The notes under the pieces: model-generated
What the model was told of the DNA's origin: nothing
Database searches by the model: none
The model's input: only the letters and a program-made list of their open reading frames with translations
In this document: positions 34,058-64,000 of the stretch, piece by piece
Layout: each line of letters starts with the position of its first letter
Position numbering within the stretch: position 1 is the first letter of the stretch
Made by a program: the position numbers and the translations under genes
DNA from: Anaerolinea sp.
Lineage (GTDB): Bacteria; Chloroflexota; Anaerolineae; Anaerolineales; Villigracilaceae
Length of the DNA: 64,000 bases
Assembly: GCA_020723805.1 (NCBI GenBank)
Contig: DYID01000008.1
Coordinates: 65,044-129,043 of the forward strand
Reading direction: 5' to 3'

Positions 34058-34213
34058 GACCTAACCCCCAGCCCCTTCCCTGGGAGGGAAGGGGAGTTGA
34101 CCTAGCCCCAGCCCCTTCCCTGGGAGGGAAGGGGAGTTGACCTAGCCCCAGCCCCTTCCCTCGAAGGGAAGGGGAGTTGACCTAGCCCCCGCCCCTTCCC
34201 TCGAAGGGAAGGG
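34056..34213. repeat. Tandem palindromic repeats upstream of the DUF559 gene (four units of 40-41 bp)
   Basis: Each unit reads TTGACCTA(A/G)CCCCC, then AGCCCCTTCCC, a 2-4-nt centre and GGGAAGGGGAG, so the core is a near-perfect palindrome. The centre alternates between TGGGA and TCGAA. The last unit ends in GGGGGA, which serves as the ribosome-binding site for the nuclease gene. Confidence 0.9.
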
Positions 34214-34217
34214 GGAT

Positions 34218-34613
34218 ATGGAGGAAGAGAAGACGTACCTTATGCCAATCAGGAATATCGTTCGCGGACAGAAAGTATCTGCCAGACAACTCGAGCGTGC
34301 AAAGGAATTGCGGCGGGAGATGACCCCTGCGGAGAAGATTCTTTGGAAACATCTGAAGGCGAACAGGTTGAACGGACTGCATTTTCGGCGACAGCAAATC
34401 ATTCATGGTTATTTTGCCGATTTTTTGTGTCATCAACATGATTTGATCGTAGAAGTGGACGGGGGAATTCATGATTTGCAACAGGAGTATGATGCCGAGC
34501 GCGAAGAGTATTTGAGGTCGCTTGGATTTCGGATTGTTCGATTTAGAAATGAAGAGGTGACGAAGAATTTGGAAGGTGTTTTGCAGAGGATTGTGGAGGC
34601 GTGTCGGACCTAA
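34218..34613 (+). CDS. DUF559 endonuclease-domain protein
   Basis: 131 residues. A DUF559 domain with a Vsr/restriction-type fold: MTPAEKILWKHLK is the family N-terminal signature, and Asp68, Glu79 and Asp81 in FADFLCHQHDLIVEVDG fit the nuclease metal site. It is often considered an endonuclease, with unknown target. It starts 4 nt after one palindromic repeat array and its stop codon lies in the next array. The ribosome-binding GGGGG belongs to the repeat. It sits between two fdhA genes and looks like a repeat-associated mobile cassette. Confidence 0.85.
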   Translation: MEEEKTYLMPIRNIVRGQKVSARQLERAKELRREMTPAEKILWKHLKANRLNGLHFRRQQIIHGYFADFLCHQHDLIVEVDGGIHDLQQEYDAEREEYLRSLGFRIVRFRNEEVTKNLEGVLQRIVEACRT

Positions 34614-34764
34614 CCCGACCTATCCCCTAACCCCTTCCCTAGCAGGGAAGGGGAGTTGACCTAACCCCCAGCCCCTTCCCTAGCAGGGAAGGGGAGTTGA
34701 CCTAACCCCCAGCCCCTTCCCTAACAGGGAAGGGGAGTAGGGGGATAGGTCCGATGCGACACTG
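34600..34764. repeat. Tandem palindromic repeats downstream of the DUF559 gene (three units)
   Basis: The same family as 34056-34213: CCCCTTCCC-TAGCA-GGGAAGGGG cores 41 bp apart. The array is bounded by an inverted pair: GTGTCGGACC...GACCTATCCCC at 34600-34627 and GGGGATAGGTCCG...CGACAC at 34741-34761. Confidence 0.85.
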
Positions 34765-60923: not shown

Positions 60924-61880
60924 ATGGATTTGAACACCCGTAACCCCGGCACGCCCCTCGACTTGGACTGGGTGATGGGCGCGCACGTCAACAAGAGCGC
61001 GGTGGAGAGGCGCGTTGCCAGCCTGCCCGCTCGCCGCACCGTCAAAAAGGACTGGCAGGCTGCGTGGCTGCTGCGCGCCGTCACCTGCATTGACCTGACC
61101 ACCCTCTCCGGCGACGATACCCCCGGACGAGTCCGCCGCCTGTGCGCCAAAGCCAGACAGCCGATTCGCCCCGATATGCTGGAACGCCTCGGACTTAACG
61201 GAGAGCGGATTCACGTCGCCGCGGTCTGCGTCTACCCGAATCGCGTCCGCGACGCGGTGGAGGCGCTGCAAGGCACAGACATCCCCGTCGCTTCCGTTGC
61301 CACCGGCTTCCCCGCCGGGCAAACCCCGCTCCCGCAGCGCATCGCCGAAATCAAGCAGGCGGTGGAAGCGGGCGCGCGCGAGATTGATGTGGTCATTGCC
61401 CGCAACCATGTGCTGACGGGAAACTGGCGCGCCCTTTACGATGAACTGGTTCAATTCCGCAAAGCCTGCGGCGACGCGCACATGAAGACCATCCTTGCCA
61501 CCGGCGACCTCGGCACGCTCAAGCAGGTCTATCAAGCCAGCCTGGTGGCGATGATGGCTGGCTCGGACTTTATCAAGACCTCGACGGGCAAGGAAACGGT
61601 CAATGCGACGCTGGAGGTGAGTCTCGTGATGGTACGCGCCATCCGCGAGTATCTCGAACGCTTCGGCTACAAGGTCGGGTTCAAGCCTGCAGGCGGAATC
61701 GGTTCCGCAAAGCAGGCGATGAACTGGCAATTCTTGATGAAGGAAGAACTCGGCGACGAGTGGATGATGCCCCACCTCTTCCGCTTCGGCGCCTCCAGCC
61801 TGCTGACGGATTTGGAGCGGCAGTTGTATCACTACCTCACGGGCCGCTACGCCGCGAAACATCACATGCCGATGGGATAG
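60924..61880 (+). CDS. deoC: Deoxyribose-phosphate aldolase
   Basis: 318 residues. It splits 2-deoxyribose 5-phosphate to glyceraldehyde 3-phosphate and acetaldehyde. The Schiff-base Lys is in FIKTSTGKE, and other sites are EIDVVIARNHVL, KTILATGDLG and KPAGGI. It works downstream of purine nucleoside phosphorylase. An aldehyde dehydrogenase, which could oxidise the acetaldehyde, lies at 63380 and was probably next to deoC before the insertion. The last 25 nt are duplicated at 62631-62655. Confidence 0.95.
   Translation: MDLNTRNPGTPLDLDWVMGAHVNKSAVERRVASLPARRTVKKDWQAAWLLRAVTCIDLTTLSGDDTPGRVRRLCAKARQPIRPDMLERLGLNGERIHVAAVCVYPNRVRDAVEALQGTDIPVASVATGFPAGQTPLPQRIAEIKQAVEAGAREIDVVIARNHVLTGNWRALYDELVQFRKACGDAHMKTILATGDLGTLKQVYQASLVAMMAGSDFIKTSTGKETVNATLEVSLVMVRAIREYLERFGYKVGFKPAGGIGSAKQAMNWQFLMKEELGDEWMMPHLFRFGASSLLTDLERQLYHYLTGRYAAKHHMPMG
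61854..61878 (+). repeat. 25-bp direct repeat, copy 1 (inside deoC 3' end)
   Basis: Begins GCGAAACATC and ends GCCGATGGGAT; identical to 62631-62655. The pair brackets the toxin-antitoxin cassette. Confidence 0.9.
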
Positions 61881-61909: not shown

Positions 61910-62152
61910 ATGGCTCTTGATACCTTTGAAAAGTTGCTGAAACAAGCCGATCGCCTCACGCCTGACGAACAGTTATTACTTGCCACGCGCCTGATCGAAA
62001 AAGCGAGACAAGCCTCCAAACCTATGACGGGCAAGGATTTGCTTAAGTCGGGAGTGGTGGGCATGTGGGCAAAGCGAACCGACATCGGGAATAGCGTGAC
62101 CTATGCGCGGAAACTGCGAACACAGGCGCAAACACGGAATCGGACATCATGA
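61910..62152 (+). CDS. Antitoxin of a PIN toxin-antitoxin pair
   Basis: 80 residues. MALDTFEKLLKQADRLTPDEQLLLATRLIEKAR is helical like DUF2281/RelB-type N-termini; the C-terminal half is basic. AAGTGAGAAGAG is upstream of ATG 61910. It overlaps the toxin gene by 4 nt. It begins 30 nt after the deoC stop. Confidence 0.75.
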   Translation: MALDTFEKLLKQADRLTPDEQLLLATRLIEKARQASKPMTGKDLLKSGVVGMWAKRTDIGNSVTYARKLRTQAQTRNRTS

Positions 62153-62526
62153 TTTTGCTCGACACTGATGTCATGGTGGATATCCTGCGCGGTTATGAAC
62201 CTGCCAGGGAATGGCTAAAAATCGCGCAAGAAATTGGCGTCCCTGGGCTTGTGGCGATGGAATTGATACAGGGTTGCCAAAACGCGAAAGAACAAAAGCA
62301 ACTGGAAAAGGCTTTGTCGGCGTACCAACTCTTCTGGCCCGACGAAAACGACTGTAATCGGGCGCTGGCTAATTTTGCTTCTCATCATTTGAGCGATAAT
62401 ATTGGGCTGCTTGATGCTCTGATTGCCGAAACTGCGATTGGTGTCAACGCGGATCTCGCAACCTTCAATGTCAAGCATTATCGTGTGTTGAAGGGTCTGC
62501 GAACAGTACAACCTTATGGAAAATAG
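62149..62526 (+). CDS. PIN-domain toxin (VapC-like ribonuclease)
   Basis: 125 residues. Acidic residues of the PIN site in LLDTDVMVDIL (Asp5, Asp7), VAMELIQG (Glu), IGLLDALIAETA (Asp) and VNADLATFN (Asp). A different lineage from the toxin at 37452 but with the same layout and setting. Confidence 0.88.
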   Translation: MILLDTDVMVDILRGYEPAREWLKIAQEIGVPGLVAMELIQGCQNAKEQKQLEKALSAYQLFWPDENDCNRALANFASHHLSDNIGLLDALIAETAIGVNADLATFNVKHYRVLKGLRTVQPYGK

Positions 62527-62630
62527 TTCAACCTGGCAGGTTTCCTCCGATGCCCACCCCTCTCTCCCAGCCTCCCGCGCACAGATTCCCATCCGCCGCG
62601 GCGCGCACACCGCCTGTCGGGTCTATGACA

Positions 62631-62655
62631 GCGAAACATCACATGCCGATGGGAT
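62631..62655 (+). repeat. 25-bp direct repeat, copy 2
   Basis: A perfect copy of 61854-61878, with a stop (TGA) just after it in the deoC frame instead of TAG. Confidence 0.9.
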
Positions 62656-62664
62656 GAGCGCTTC

Positions 62665-62794
62665 GATGGTCGAGTAGGGCTGGCGCTTTTCCAGCCCATA
62701 CCGAGACCATCGGTTGGATGTAAACAAATGGTTTCTTAGCACTGGTGGTCTCGATATGTTCCTCGCAAAGAATGCTCGTCGTTACTCGACCACC
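62665..62794. repeat. GGTCGAGTAG palindromic repeats A and B upstream of the GIY-YIG gene
   Basis: A, 62665-62711: GATGGTCGAGTAG ... CCGAGACCATC with an inner hairpin GGGCTGG/CCAGCCC. B, 62744-62794, in opposite orientation: GGTGGTCTCGATATG ... TACTCGACCACC. Confidence 0.9.
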
Positions 62795-62819
62795 GAATAT
62801 GAATGGAGCAAGAGTTTAC

Positions 62820-63158
62820 ATGGCATGGATGTATATTCTCAAGTGCGCTGACGGCTCGTATTATGTCGGCTCGACCAAAAATCTTGAGAGGCGCATGGAA
62901 CAGCATCAATCTGGTAAAGGTGCAAGATATACATCGAGGCGGCTTCCAGTGGAGTTGGTATATAGCGAAGAATATGATCGCGTTGCCGATGCTTATTATC
63001 GTGAAAAGCAAGTTCAGAATTGGAGCAGGGCAAAGCGGGAAGCATTGATCAACGGTGAATATGAAAAACTTCCCGCGCTTGCAAAGAAGAAATTTCAAAC
63101 GCAACCTGTTGGTCGAGTAGCCCCGTGTTCGTCGGGGCGTACCGAGACCAATGAGTGA
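62820..63158 (+). CDS. GIY-YIG endonuclease
   Basis: 112 residues. The GIY-YIG core MYILKCADGSYYVGSTKNLERRMEQH has the Tyr, Arg and Glu-type residues of the URI-like single-domain family. YSEEYDRVADAYYREKQVQNWSRAKREALI is the usual helical end. The last 15 residues (GRVAPCSSGRTETNE) are encoded by repeat C. Four GGTCGAGTAG-type repeats follow and two precede it. ATG 62820 is uncertain; ATG 62799 or 62829 are alternatives. Confidence 0.88.
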   Translation: MAWMYILKCADGSYYVGSTKNLERRMEQHQSGKGARYTSRRLPVELVYSEEYDRVADAYYREKQVQNWSRAKREALINGEYEKLPALAKKKFQTQPVGRVAPCSSGRTETNE

Positions 63159-63359
63159 CCAGAGAACGAAAGATTGCAAGAAGCCGCTGGTCTCGATACG
63201 GGCAAGAAGAACGCTTGCCCTACTCGCCCAGCGGGAATATCGTTGGTCGAGTAGGACGAAGTCCGTACCGAGACCAACAGTAACTTGAAAACAGACAATT
63301 ACATGAAATGCGCTGGTCTCGATACGTTCCTCGCTGTCGCTCGGAACTACTCGACCAGC
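63109..63359. repeat. GGTCGAGTAG palindromic repeats C-F downstream of the GIY-YIG gene
   Basis: C, 63109-63151 (+): TTGGTCGAGTAG ... ACCGAGACCAA. D, 63186-63232 (-): GCTGGTCTCGATACG ... TACTCGCCCAGC. E, 63242-63278 (+): GTTGGTCGAGTAG ... ACCGAGACCAAC. F, 63312-63359 (-): GCTGGTCTCGATACG ... CTACTCGACCAGC. Orientations alternate strictly over all six copies. Confidence 0.9.
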
Positions 63360-63379
63360 AGTGCAAATTGGAGTTTATT

Positions 63380-64000
63380 ATGAGCACAGTACTTGACCTC
63401 TTCAAAACCATGGAATACGGACCCGCGCCCGAGTCGCCCGCCGCGGCAAACGCCTGGTTGGATGATCACGGACGGAAGTTTGGTCTGTTCATCAACAATG
63501 AATGGGTGACGCCCAAAGGGGCGAAGTATTACCCTTCCTACAACCCCGCTACGGGCGAATTGCTCGCTGAGACCGTGCAGGCAGGCAAAAAGGAAGTGGA
63601 CGCCGCCGTTGCCGCCGCCCGCGCCGCTTTCGAGTCATGGAGCAAAACCCCGGGCGTTGTCCGCGCCCGCTACATGTACGCCATTGCCCGCAACATCCAG
63701 AAACATCATCGCCTGCTGGCGGTGTTGGAGAGTATGGACAACGGCAAGCCGATCCGCGAGTCGCGCGATATTGACGTGCCGCTGCTGGCGCGTCACTTTT
63801 ACTACTACGCGGGTTGGGCGCAACTGATGGAAACCGAACTGCGCGATTACCAGCCCGTCGGCGTGGTGGGACAAATCATCCCCTGGAACTTCCCGCTGCT
63901 GATGCTGGCGTGGAAGATCGCACCCGCCATTGCGATGGGCAACACGGTGGTGCTCAAGCCCGCCTCGTACACGCGGCTCTCGGCGCTGCTGTTTGCCGAA
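63380..64000 (+). CDS. Aldehyde dehydrogenase (partial, N-terminal part)
   Basis: The gene runs off the right edge; 207 residues are visible. Signatures: YPSYNPATGELLAETV, AAFESWSKTPGVVRARYM, SMDNGKPIRESRDID and VGVVGQIIPWNFPLLMLAWKIAPAIAMGNTVVLKPA, the NAD-binding core start. The catalytic Cys lies beyond the window. It may oxidise acetaldehyde from DeoC. TTGGAG lies 8-9 nt before ATG 63380. Confidence 0.93.
   Translation, partial: MSTVLDLFKTMEYGPAPESPAAANAWLDDHGRKFGLFINNEWVTPKGAKYYPSYNPATGELLAETVQAGKKEVDAAVAAARAAFESWSKTPGVVRARYMYAIARNIQKHHRLLAVLESMDNGKPIRESRDIDVPLLARHFYYYAGWAQLMETELRDYQPVGVVGQIIPWNFPLLMLAWKIAPAIAMGNTVVLKPASYTRLSALLFAE

Follow-up and report, generated by a model that had tools for sequence, protein, structure and literature searches.

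Introduction

Why does a small nuclease gene stand amid six copies of a palindromic repeat? The question is raised by one locus of the window, that is, of the whole 64-kb stretch of DNA analysed here (C31:65044-129043 of a 3.69-Mb draft genome, G000, referred to below as the own genome). The best reading, and a likely one, is an independent kind of nuclease-driven interspersed repeat; neither cleavage nor movement has been shown. The gene and its six hairpins would probably constitute one REPtron-like copy, in which a dedicated GIY-YIG nuclease is flanked by inverted doublets of the hairpin that it recognises, with recognition, cleavage and mobilisation all inferred. What is shown is the linkage of hairpin and nuclease, its spread across phyla, a partial matching of hairpin subtype to nuclease, the tandem G.A core, purifying selection on the nuclease, and presence/absence.

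The Locus and Its Six Elements

An earlier note, made from the sequence alone, had described a GIY-YIG gene inside six palindromic repeats in the order + - + - + -. All six copies have been located, and the claim held. Element A (62667-62709, + strand) carries the outer arm TGGTC, the core GAG...CGA and a variable inner stem, and its predicted single-stranded DNA hairpin has a fold z of -3.8. Element B (62746-62792, - strand) forms an inverted doublet with A, and its predicted fold is weak (z -0.6). The nuclease gene (62820-63158, + strand) encodes a UPF0213/COG2827-like protein of 112 aa of the repeat-associated type (Pfam PF01541, E 3.3e-20). Element C (63110-63150, + strand; z -3.0) forms an inverted doublet with element D (63188-63230, - strand; z -2.1), whose outer arm has one mismatch. 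The last doublet consists of element E (63244-63276, + strand; z -1.4) and element F (63314-63357, - strand; z -1.9), and the inner stem of F contains a second GAG/CGA core (63326-63347). Single-stranded folding supports hairpins for A, C and D, gives weak support for F and E, and gives none for B. The spacing is 36 nt between A and B, 37 nt between C and D, 13 nt between D and E, and 37 nt between E and F, with the nuclease gene lying between B and C. Based on these spacings, the six elements are read as three inverted doublets, and the gene separates the first of these from the second.

The statement that repeat C supplies C-terminal codons also held. Element C lies wholly within the last codons of the nuclease gene, at its 3' end, and codes for most of the C-terminal tail. 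In the same-genus copy of the nuclease (L083, in the sister species G213), the reading frame ends immediately before its element. Elements are also translated at four other loci (L105, L110, L117 and L195), where they yield the recurring peptides PELVEGN, PEPVEG and SLSEVEGN in protein tails or linkers.

The clustering of six copies at this locus exceeds chance, as shown with a two-end pattern and its reversed control. Across the 3.69 Mb of the genome the pattern matches 20 times, at the nuclease locus in 5 cases and elsewhere in 15, and the reversed control has no match in the same genome. The stricter rule of arm-GAG...CGA-arm' gives seven matches in the 64-kb window, of which six are at the nuclease locus (one of these nested in F); this rule misses element D. 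An RNA family was considered and rejected, as no Rfam family matched at the gathering threshold in positions 62000-64000 of the window.

What Defines an Element

Outermost in an element is a perfectly paired arm (here TGGTC/GACCA). Next inward come GAG on the left side and CGA on the right side, followed by a short loop or a further stem-loop. The GAG/CGA core forms two G.A mismatches in a row, a tandem G.A step, with a G-C pair closing it. Four core types were distinguished among the elements, namely TA (the long type), C, CG and GG. Copies are alike at their ends and different inside. The 102 distinct long-type elements have 60 different left inner halves, and their inner halves pair at 4.80 of 6 positions on average, compared with 2.54 for shuffled partners (maximum 2.85 in 500 shuffles).

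The GAG/CGA core was not picked blindly, and all 2x2 internal-loop combinations were therefore compared in hairpins with a 6-bp arm, a 2x2 internal loop and a closing pair lying within 300 bp of 80 nuclease genes. The internal loop was GA/GA or its complement TC/TC in 162 of 293 such hairpins, while the next most frequent combination occurred 8 times. Far from nuclease genes, GA/GA and TC/TC together accounted for 66 of 1650 hairpins. A tandem G.A core shared by the elements is among the things shown.

That the inner stem is itself an element was considered as a general rule and rejected; this is true of a minority only (15 of 140 distinct long-type elements; controls 0-2).

The Nuclease

The gene meets the features of the GIY-YIG superfamily, with the GIY/YIG tyrosines, the catalytic Arg and Glu, and the fold. 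Its structure model has a mean pLDDT of 88, and fold and profile searches place UPF0213 and Slx1 proteins as the nearest folds and solved relatives. Residues Y5, Y15, R25, H29 and E62, which we take to be those of the active site, are conserved in 105 or more of the 105-106 aligned rows. Comparison of the window nuclease with the copy in G213 gave a Ka of 0.023 and a Ks of 0.627, and the nuclease is therefore under strong purifying selection. It appears to be maintained as an active enzyme; cleavage is inferred, without protein data. No transposase domain was found in the nuclease gene with Pfam.

Linkage of the Hairpins With the Nuclease

Are the hairpins tied to this nuclease in other genomes? 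The earlier note had proposed that its reading would fail without enrichment of GIY-YIG genes near the repeat elsewhere. Enrichment was found, in support of that interpretation, and the linkage reaches 11 phyla. Within the class of the own genome, the strict repeat is present in 24 of 298 genomes; its reversed control gave one match each in two other genomes of the class. Among the loci found first in the class, the six repeat-type GIY-YIG loci closest to the window gene (L007, L062, L083, L064, L060 and L088) have repeats on both sides, which in L064 are a variant, GGTTGAGTAG...TATCGAAACC, instead of the standard repeat. In other families, remoter repeat-type nuclease genes have sister palindromes around them whose ends differ, for example GCATCCTGAGTAG...CGTATCGAAGGGTGC.

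A cross-phylum set was obtained by protein alignment search with one genome per species, keeping the best 80 of 551 relatives. These 80 loci come from 12 named phyla and one unplaced record. An element lies outside the gene and within 500 bp of it in 62 loci from 11 phyla, leaving 18 without one; 34 of the 80 have an element on each side within 400 bp. When the gene's own tail and one G.T arm pair were allowed, a classifiable element was present in 73 loci, and 7 still had none. Elements occurred at 4.25/kb up to 300 bp from the gene; in distant DNA of the same contigs, the figure was 0.36/kb for non-coding and 0.12/kb for coding sequence. By distance, the density fell from 4.64/kb within 250 bp to 0.88/kb at 250-500 bp and 0.11-0.13/kb beyond 2 kb. 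Seven substituted or permuted cores reached 0-0.13/kb near the gene. The inverted core CGA...GAG showed a smaller excess there (0.65/kb), which is not explained.

The genomes of the class also carry a sister GIY-YIG type, whose proteins match the window protein at about 38-49% identity. It looks vertically inherited, as judged by eye from its like neighbouring sequence in relatives. Elements were found beside none of its 16 loci; these controls come from the window's class only, with flanks of up to 1.5 kb.

Strict alternation, claimed by the earlier note, held at the present locus and is only a tendency across the 80 related loci. There, neighbouring elements have opposite orientation 105 times and the same orientation 38 times, and the outer arms differ in 95 of the 105 opposite-facing pairs. 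An actinobacterial metagenome-assembled genome (G330) contains 84 copies, and some of its arrays were seen by eye to alternate strictly, with gaps of 47-49 and 16 nt.

The strongest result against the main reading comes from the class itself. A detected nuclease flanked by the strict repeat is present in 5 of the 24 repeat-bearing genomes (G000, G213, G223, G056 and G280) and was not detected in the other 19. Two genomes (G089 and G164) have a repeat-type nuclease, but with another core. No nuclease was found in the single-contig genomes G027 and G202, which contain 7 and 14 repeat copies. It is possible that nuclease genes were lost or left unassembled in these 19 genomes; this has not been shown. 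Fourteen further GIY-YIG loci of the class were read, and none is flanked by the strict TGGTC repeat; GAG/CGA elements of other kinds lie near two of them (L287 and L289). This reading left out frames of UvrC length and PF01541 matches that were weak or partial.

Core Subtype and Nuclease Phylogeny

Does the type of hairpin follow the type of nuclease? A nuclease tree was built on 93 columns from 106 loci, comprising all 80 protein-selected loci and 26 class loci; 59 of its 103 inner branches are unresolved. The tree omits L117 (domain within a 947-aa frame), L125, L127, L128 and L129, and L100-L104 duplicate earlier loci. A core type was assigned in 97 of the 106 loci, 7 of these being mixed, and 9 remained without a label. 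Core subtype requires 22 changes on the tree, compared with a shuffled mean of 51, and none of 300 shuffles was as low. A match was also found within Bacteroidota (14 changes against 22.7) and, with class loci included, within Chloroflexota (3 against 10.9), and it survived dereplication at 70% identity (13 against 19.8). The match was weak among 11 Actinomycetota (2 against 2.8; 59 of 300 shuffles as low) and among the five named Chloroflexota alone (1 against 1.8; 56 of 300). For Bacteroidota alone, dereplicated below 70% identity, the match was gone (7 against 7.1).

By subtype, TA, CG and C are each clustered on the tree (0 of 500 shuffles as low), and GG is unclustered (11 changes against 11.5 shuffled). 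Because subtype GG does not follow the tree, confidence in the main reading is slightly reduced. The same TGGTCGAGTAG...CGTATCGAGACCA ends occur beside related nucleases in Chloroflexota and in Actinomycetota. Hairpin core subtype is thus shown to match the nuclease clade in part.

Presence, Absence and Inferred Mobility

On one side of the cassette stands deoC and on the other an aldehyde dehydrogenase gene, and empty sites between these two genes had been suggested as a test. Such sites were found in five relatives. Of 18 deoC loci, 17 were read (L214-L230, own included), and the aldehyde dehydrogenase gene is visible in 7; in the other ten, the locus is too short or the gene is not there. 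In L217, L220, L225, L227 and L229, the dehydrogenase gene follows deoC after 21-132 bp, without element or nuclease between. L221 and L222 have other sequence in this gap (678 and 986 bp). In G213, deoC is followed at once by the cassette, and the PIN-domain gene that stands before the cassette in the window is missing.

This PIN-domain gene and a small upstream partner occupy 61910-62526, and the pair is absent from G213. A 25-bp piece of the deoC 3' end (61854-61878) is repeated exactly at 62631-62655, beyond the pair. Given the exact repeat and the absence from G213, the pair seems to have been inserted and the gene end duplicated in the process.

A doublet on contig C5 of the own genome is missing from the orthologous gap in 7 of 7 aligned relatives. 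In L237 and L238 only a short gap is present, and L236 and L241 contain other sequence. By coordinates, the gap is 42 bp in G302, 67 bp in G320 and 285 bp in G313, where the sequence was not read. Presence/absence at orthologous sites is shown for both cassette and doublet. Alignment of doublets with relatives established no target-site duplication, which along with terminal inverted repeats and a transposase would mark an insertion sequence or a MITE. In L233-L235, the C5 gap holds an unrelated C-rich palindrome, and the same gap therefore attracts different repeat families.

Elements have also been found inside the loops of other elements, with an uninterrupted copy of the host in the same locus (L195 and L196). 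In L195, the host TGGGTGAGCGG|AGTCGAACCCA holds at the bar a 24-nt insert with a GAG/CGA core of its own; this insert has a 4-bp arm and was found by eye. The nested cases comprise 14 lines for 8 loci and include partial tandem duplications (L143, L149 and L154); they count as evidence only with an intact copy nearby.

Carriage of the nuclease by plasmids or phages was considered and rejected on the records available. The best match among 47 plasmid records has 51.6% identity, and none of 23 phage records covers 80% of the nuclease protein. The two best plasmid matches are Methylobacterium megaplasmids (L274 and L275, the latter with a broken frame), which have no element by the 5-bp-arm rule. 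By eye, both flanks of each show CATCCTGAGG...CTCGAAGGAGG-like palindromes, whose arm is 4 bp long and whose core is again GAG/CGA. These two loci were read after the rule had been fixed and are excluded from the counts.

Proposed Mechanism and Relation to Known Systems

How might the repeats spread? In single-stranded or extruded DNA, each element would fold with the tandem G.A step between its outer arm and inner stem-loop. The nuclease, as a relative of the structure-specific Slx1/UPF0213 enzymes, would bind the G.A hairpin and cut it in the loop or close by. With another copy serving as template, repair of this break would then copy doublets to new sites, and the cut loop would become an entry point for further elements. 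The usual moving unit would be the doublet and not the nuclease gene. A loop that serves as cut site and entry point would explain nested loops, variable but paired inner stems and alternating arrays; this is a proposal.

The closest parallel is the REPtron, in which REP, BIME or REPIN repeats accompany RAYT, a Y1 HUH transposase. Both systems have short dispersed hairpins and inverted doublets that cluster around one dedicated endonuclease gene. The E. coli REPtron consists of three inverted REP pairs of two subtypes (PMC6006769), and the opposite neighbours with different outer arms seen here resemble its Y and Z REPs (PMC6006769). In REPINs, the doublet is the moving unit (PMC3116915). In both systems the repeat type varies with the enzyme, as in the low number of changes on the tree described above (22 against 51 shuffled; GG and dereplicated Bacteroidota excepted). 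Two differences stand against these likenesses. The flanked gene here encodes a GIY-YIG nuclease and not a Y1 transposase, and the defining feature is the GAG/CGA tandem G.A step and not a GTAG tag at the hairpin foot.

On the enzyme side, UPF0213/COG2827 proteins (E. coli YhbQ and B. subtilis YazA) and Slx1 share the fold and provide the nearest solved structures. YhbQ and YazA have been placed in the Slx1 family (PMC7017083). The sister chromosomal type in these genomes differs in having no such repeats. GIY-YIG homing endonucleases such as I-TevI share the catalytic domain, and selfish spread is a possible outcome common to both; the phage Seg enzymes are also GIY-YIG homing endonucleases. 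The difference is that many short dispersed hairpins are found here and not one long unique target. Finally, the CGTC-tagged palindromes of prokaryotes make up a large superfamily of repeats that, according to PMC3733652, has no transposase of its own. Their tag is unlike the GAG/CGA elements, and the text of PMC3733652 has no occurrence of GIY.

The system is regarded as categorically new because enzyme family and DNA signature both differ from those of every repeat system that could be named. Ranked by architecture alone, it could count as a variant of the REPtron kind. No paper linking GIY-YIG genes to bacterial palindromes was found in the full-text literature searched, which held no preprints and few subscription papers, so that absence from print is not shown.

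Alternative Explanations

The main rival holds that a homing-type selfish GIY-YIG gene targets a pre-existing hairpin repeat and inserts among repeats spread by other machinery. In its favour, the GIY-YIG fold is one used by homing endonucleases (the fold search returned I-TevI as a weak hit, E 0.56), and the 19 of 24 class genomes with the repeat and no detected repeat-flanked nuclease would be expected. The Nocardioides gene of L139 has identical doublets to its left and right, as insertion with duplication could leave. Against this rival, core subtype follows nuclease clade overall, so the repeats do not look independent of the nuclease. No Y1 transposase, the only enzyme searched for besides the nuclease, lies within 1.5 kb of the listed repeat sites. 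The hallmarks of a homing gene point neither way: the nuclease gene is free-standing between doublets, with no intron or intein seen, and empty junctions exist, but no split recognition site has been shown. This rival is judged unlikely.

A second alternative, for which there is very little room, is that the hairpins are ordinary REPs moved by a Y1 (RAYT/TnpA-REP) transposase, with the GIY-YIG gene a bystander. Y1_Tnp genes are indeed present in 17 of 18 repeat-bearing genomes tested, and TA elements, together with some of the CG copies, contain GTAG, the tetranucleotide that tags RAYT repeats (PMC3733652). Against this, the listed repeat sites all lie more than 1.5 kb from any Y1 gene, some genomes' sites being listed only in part. 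The nearest is about 18 kb away in the own genome, and the closest anywhere is about 1.9 kb away (G289). GTAG lies inside the hairpin and not at its foot, and subtypes C and GG are without it. As the engine, the Y1 transposase was rejected, since it is not adjacent to the listed repeat sites in 18 repeat-bearing genomes.

About as improbable is passive co-location, whereby intergenic repeats gather beside small genes that move horizontally, the two being transferred together with no functional tie. Gene and repeats do share insertion-prone gaps, as the deoC gap holds a PIN-domain gene here and other genes in L221 and L222. Against this stand the twelve-fold excess over distant non-coding DNA, the lack of elements beside the 16 sister-type GIY-YIG genes, and the subtype matching with the nuclease tree.

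A purely cis-regulatory role of immobile hairpins, in mRNA end protection or attenuation of the nuclease message, would suit hairpins beside and inside the gene's 3' end, but is all but excluded by the 15 of 20 genome copies away from the gene, the 84 copies in G330, the presence/absence at an orthologous site and the lack of any Rfam match at the gathering threshold.

Wider Classes of Palindromes

How far does the preferred reading, a dedicated GIY-YIG nuclease driving its own hairpin repeat, extend? A bolder version is that a large share of the anonymous short palindromes in bacterial genomes (the GGTCGAGTAG/TATCGAGACC, TGAGCTTGTCGA, TGAGCGNAGYCGA and TGAGGCTCTCGA families and their kin) form one tandem-G.A superfamily spread by cognate loop-cutting GIY-YIG nucleases. 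The balance tips modestly in its favour. Palindromes of such kinds occur in Chloroflexota, Bacteroidota, Actinomycetota, Cyanobacteriota and others; the literature searched gave no source for them. A link to a cognate nuclease would provide a candidate engine and a testable recognition rule, the tandem G.A between two stems. If the bolder reading is true, these repeats would be a transposase-free, break-and-copy class of interspersed repeats, parallel to and independent of REP/RAYT, and possibly a second evolutionary origin of the REPIN way of life. A further gain could be a compact nuclease that recognises DNA by its shape and a short core.

The earlier note had further drawn a parallel to a DUF559 locus and suggested a general class of repeat-nuclease cassettes, a claim that is partly supported. 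The DUF559 gene of the window (34146-34613, + strand; flanks 34060-34750) has four upstream and three downstream direct copies of a C-rich palindrome, CCCCTTCCCT...AGGGAAGGGG. Among relatives, 27 of 30 DUF559 loci were read, and hairpins were denser near the gene than far from it (1.64/kb vs 0.29/kb). They occur near the gene in 16 of the 27 loci, often of the same C-rich kind, and on both sides in only 5.

Two other GIY-YIG types also stand out by their surroundings. A subtype with an MTNK-like N-terminus (L070, L073, L075, L076, L077, L276, L277, L281, L283 and L287) sits amid other palindromes, namely GTCATTGCGAG...GCAATCTC, GTCATTTCGA...GAAATC and TCATGCCCGCG...CGGGCATCC. Several MTNK-type loci among the 14 further loci mentioned above sit amid CATTGCGAG-like palindromes, and L287 has seven GAG/CGA elements. 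A further GIY-YIG type (L279 in G213:C12 and L286 in G061:C39) adjoins a tRNA-like gene, with tRNA-like fragments seen by eye on both sides.
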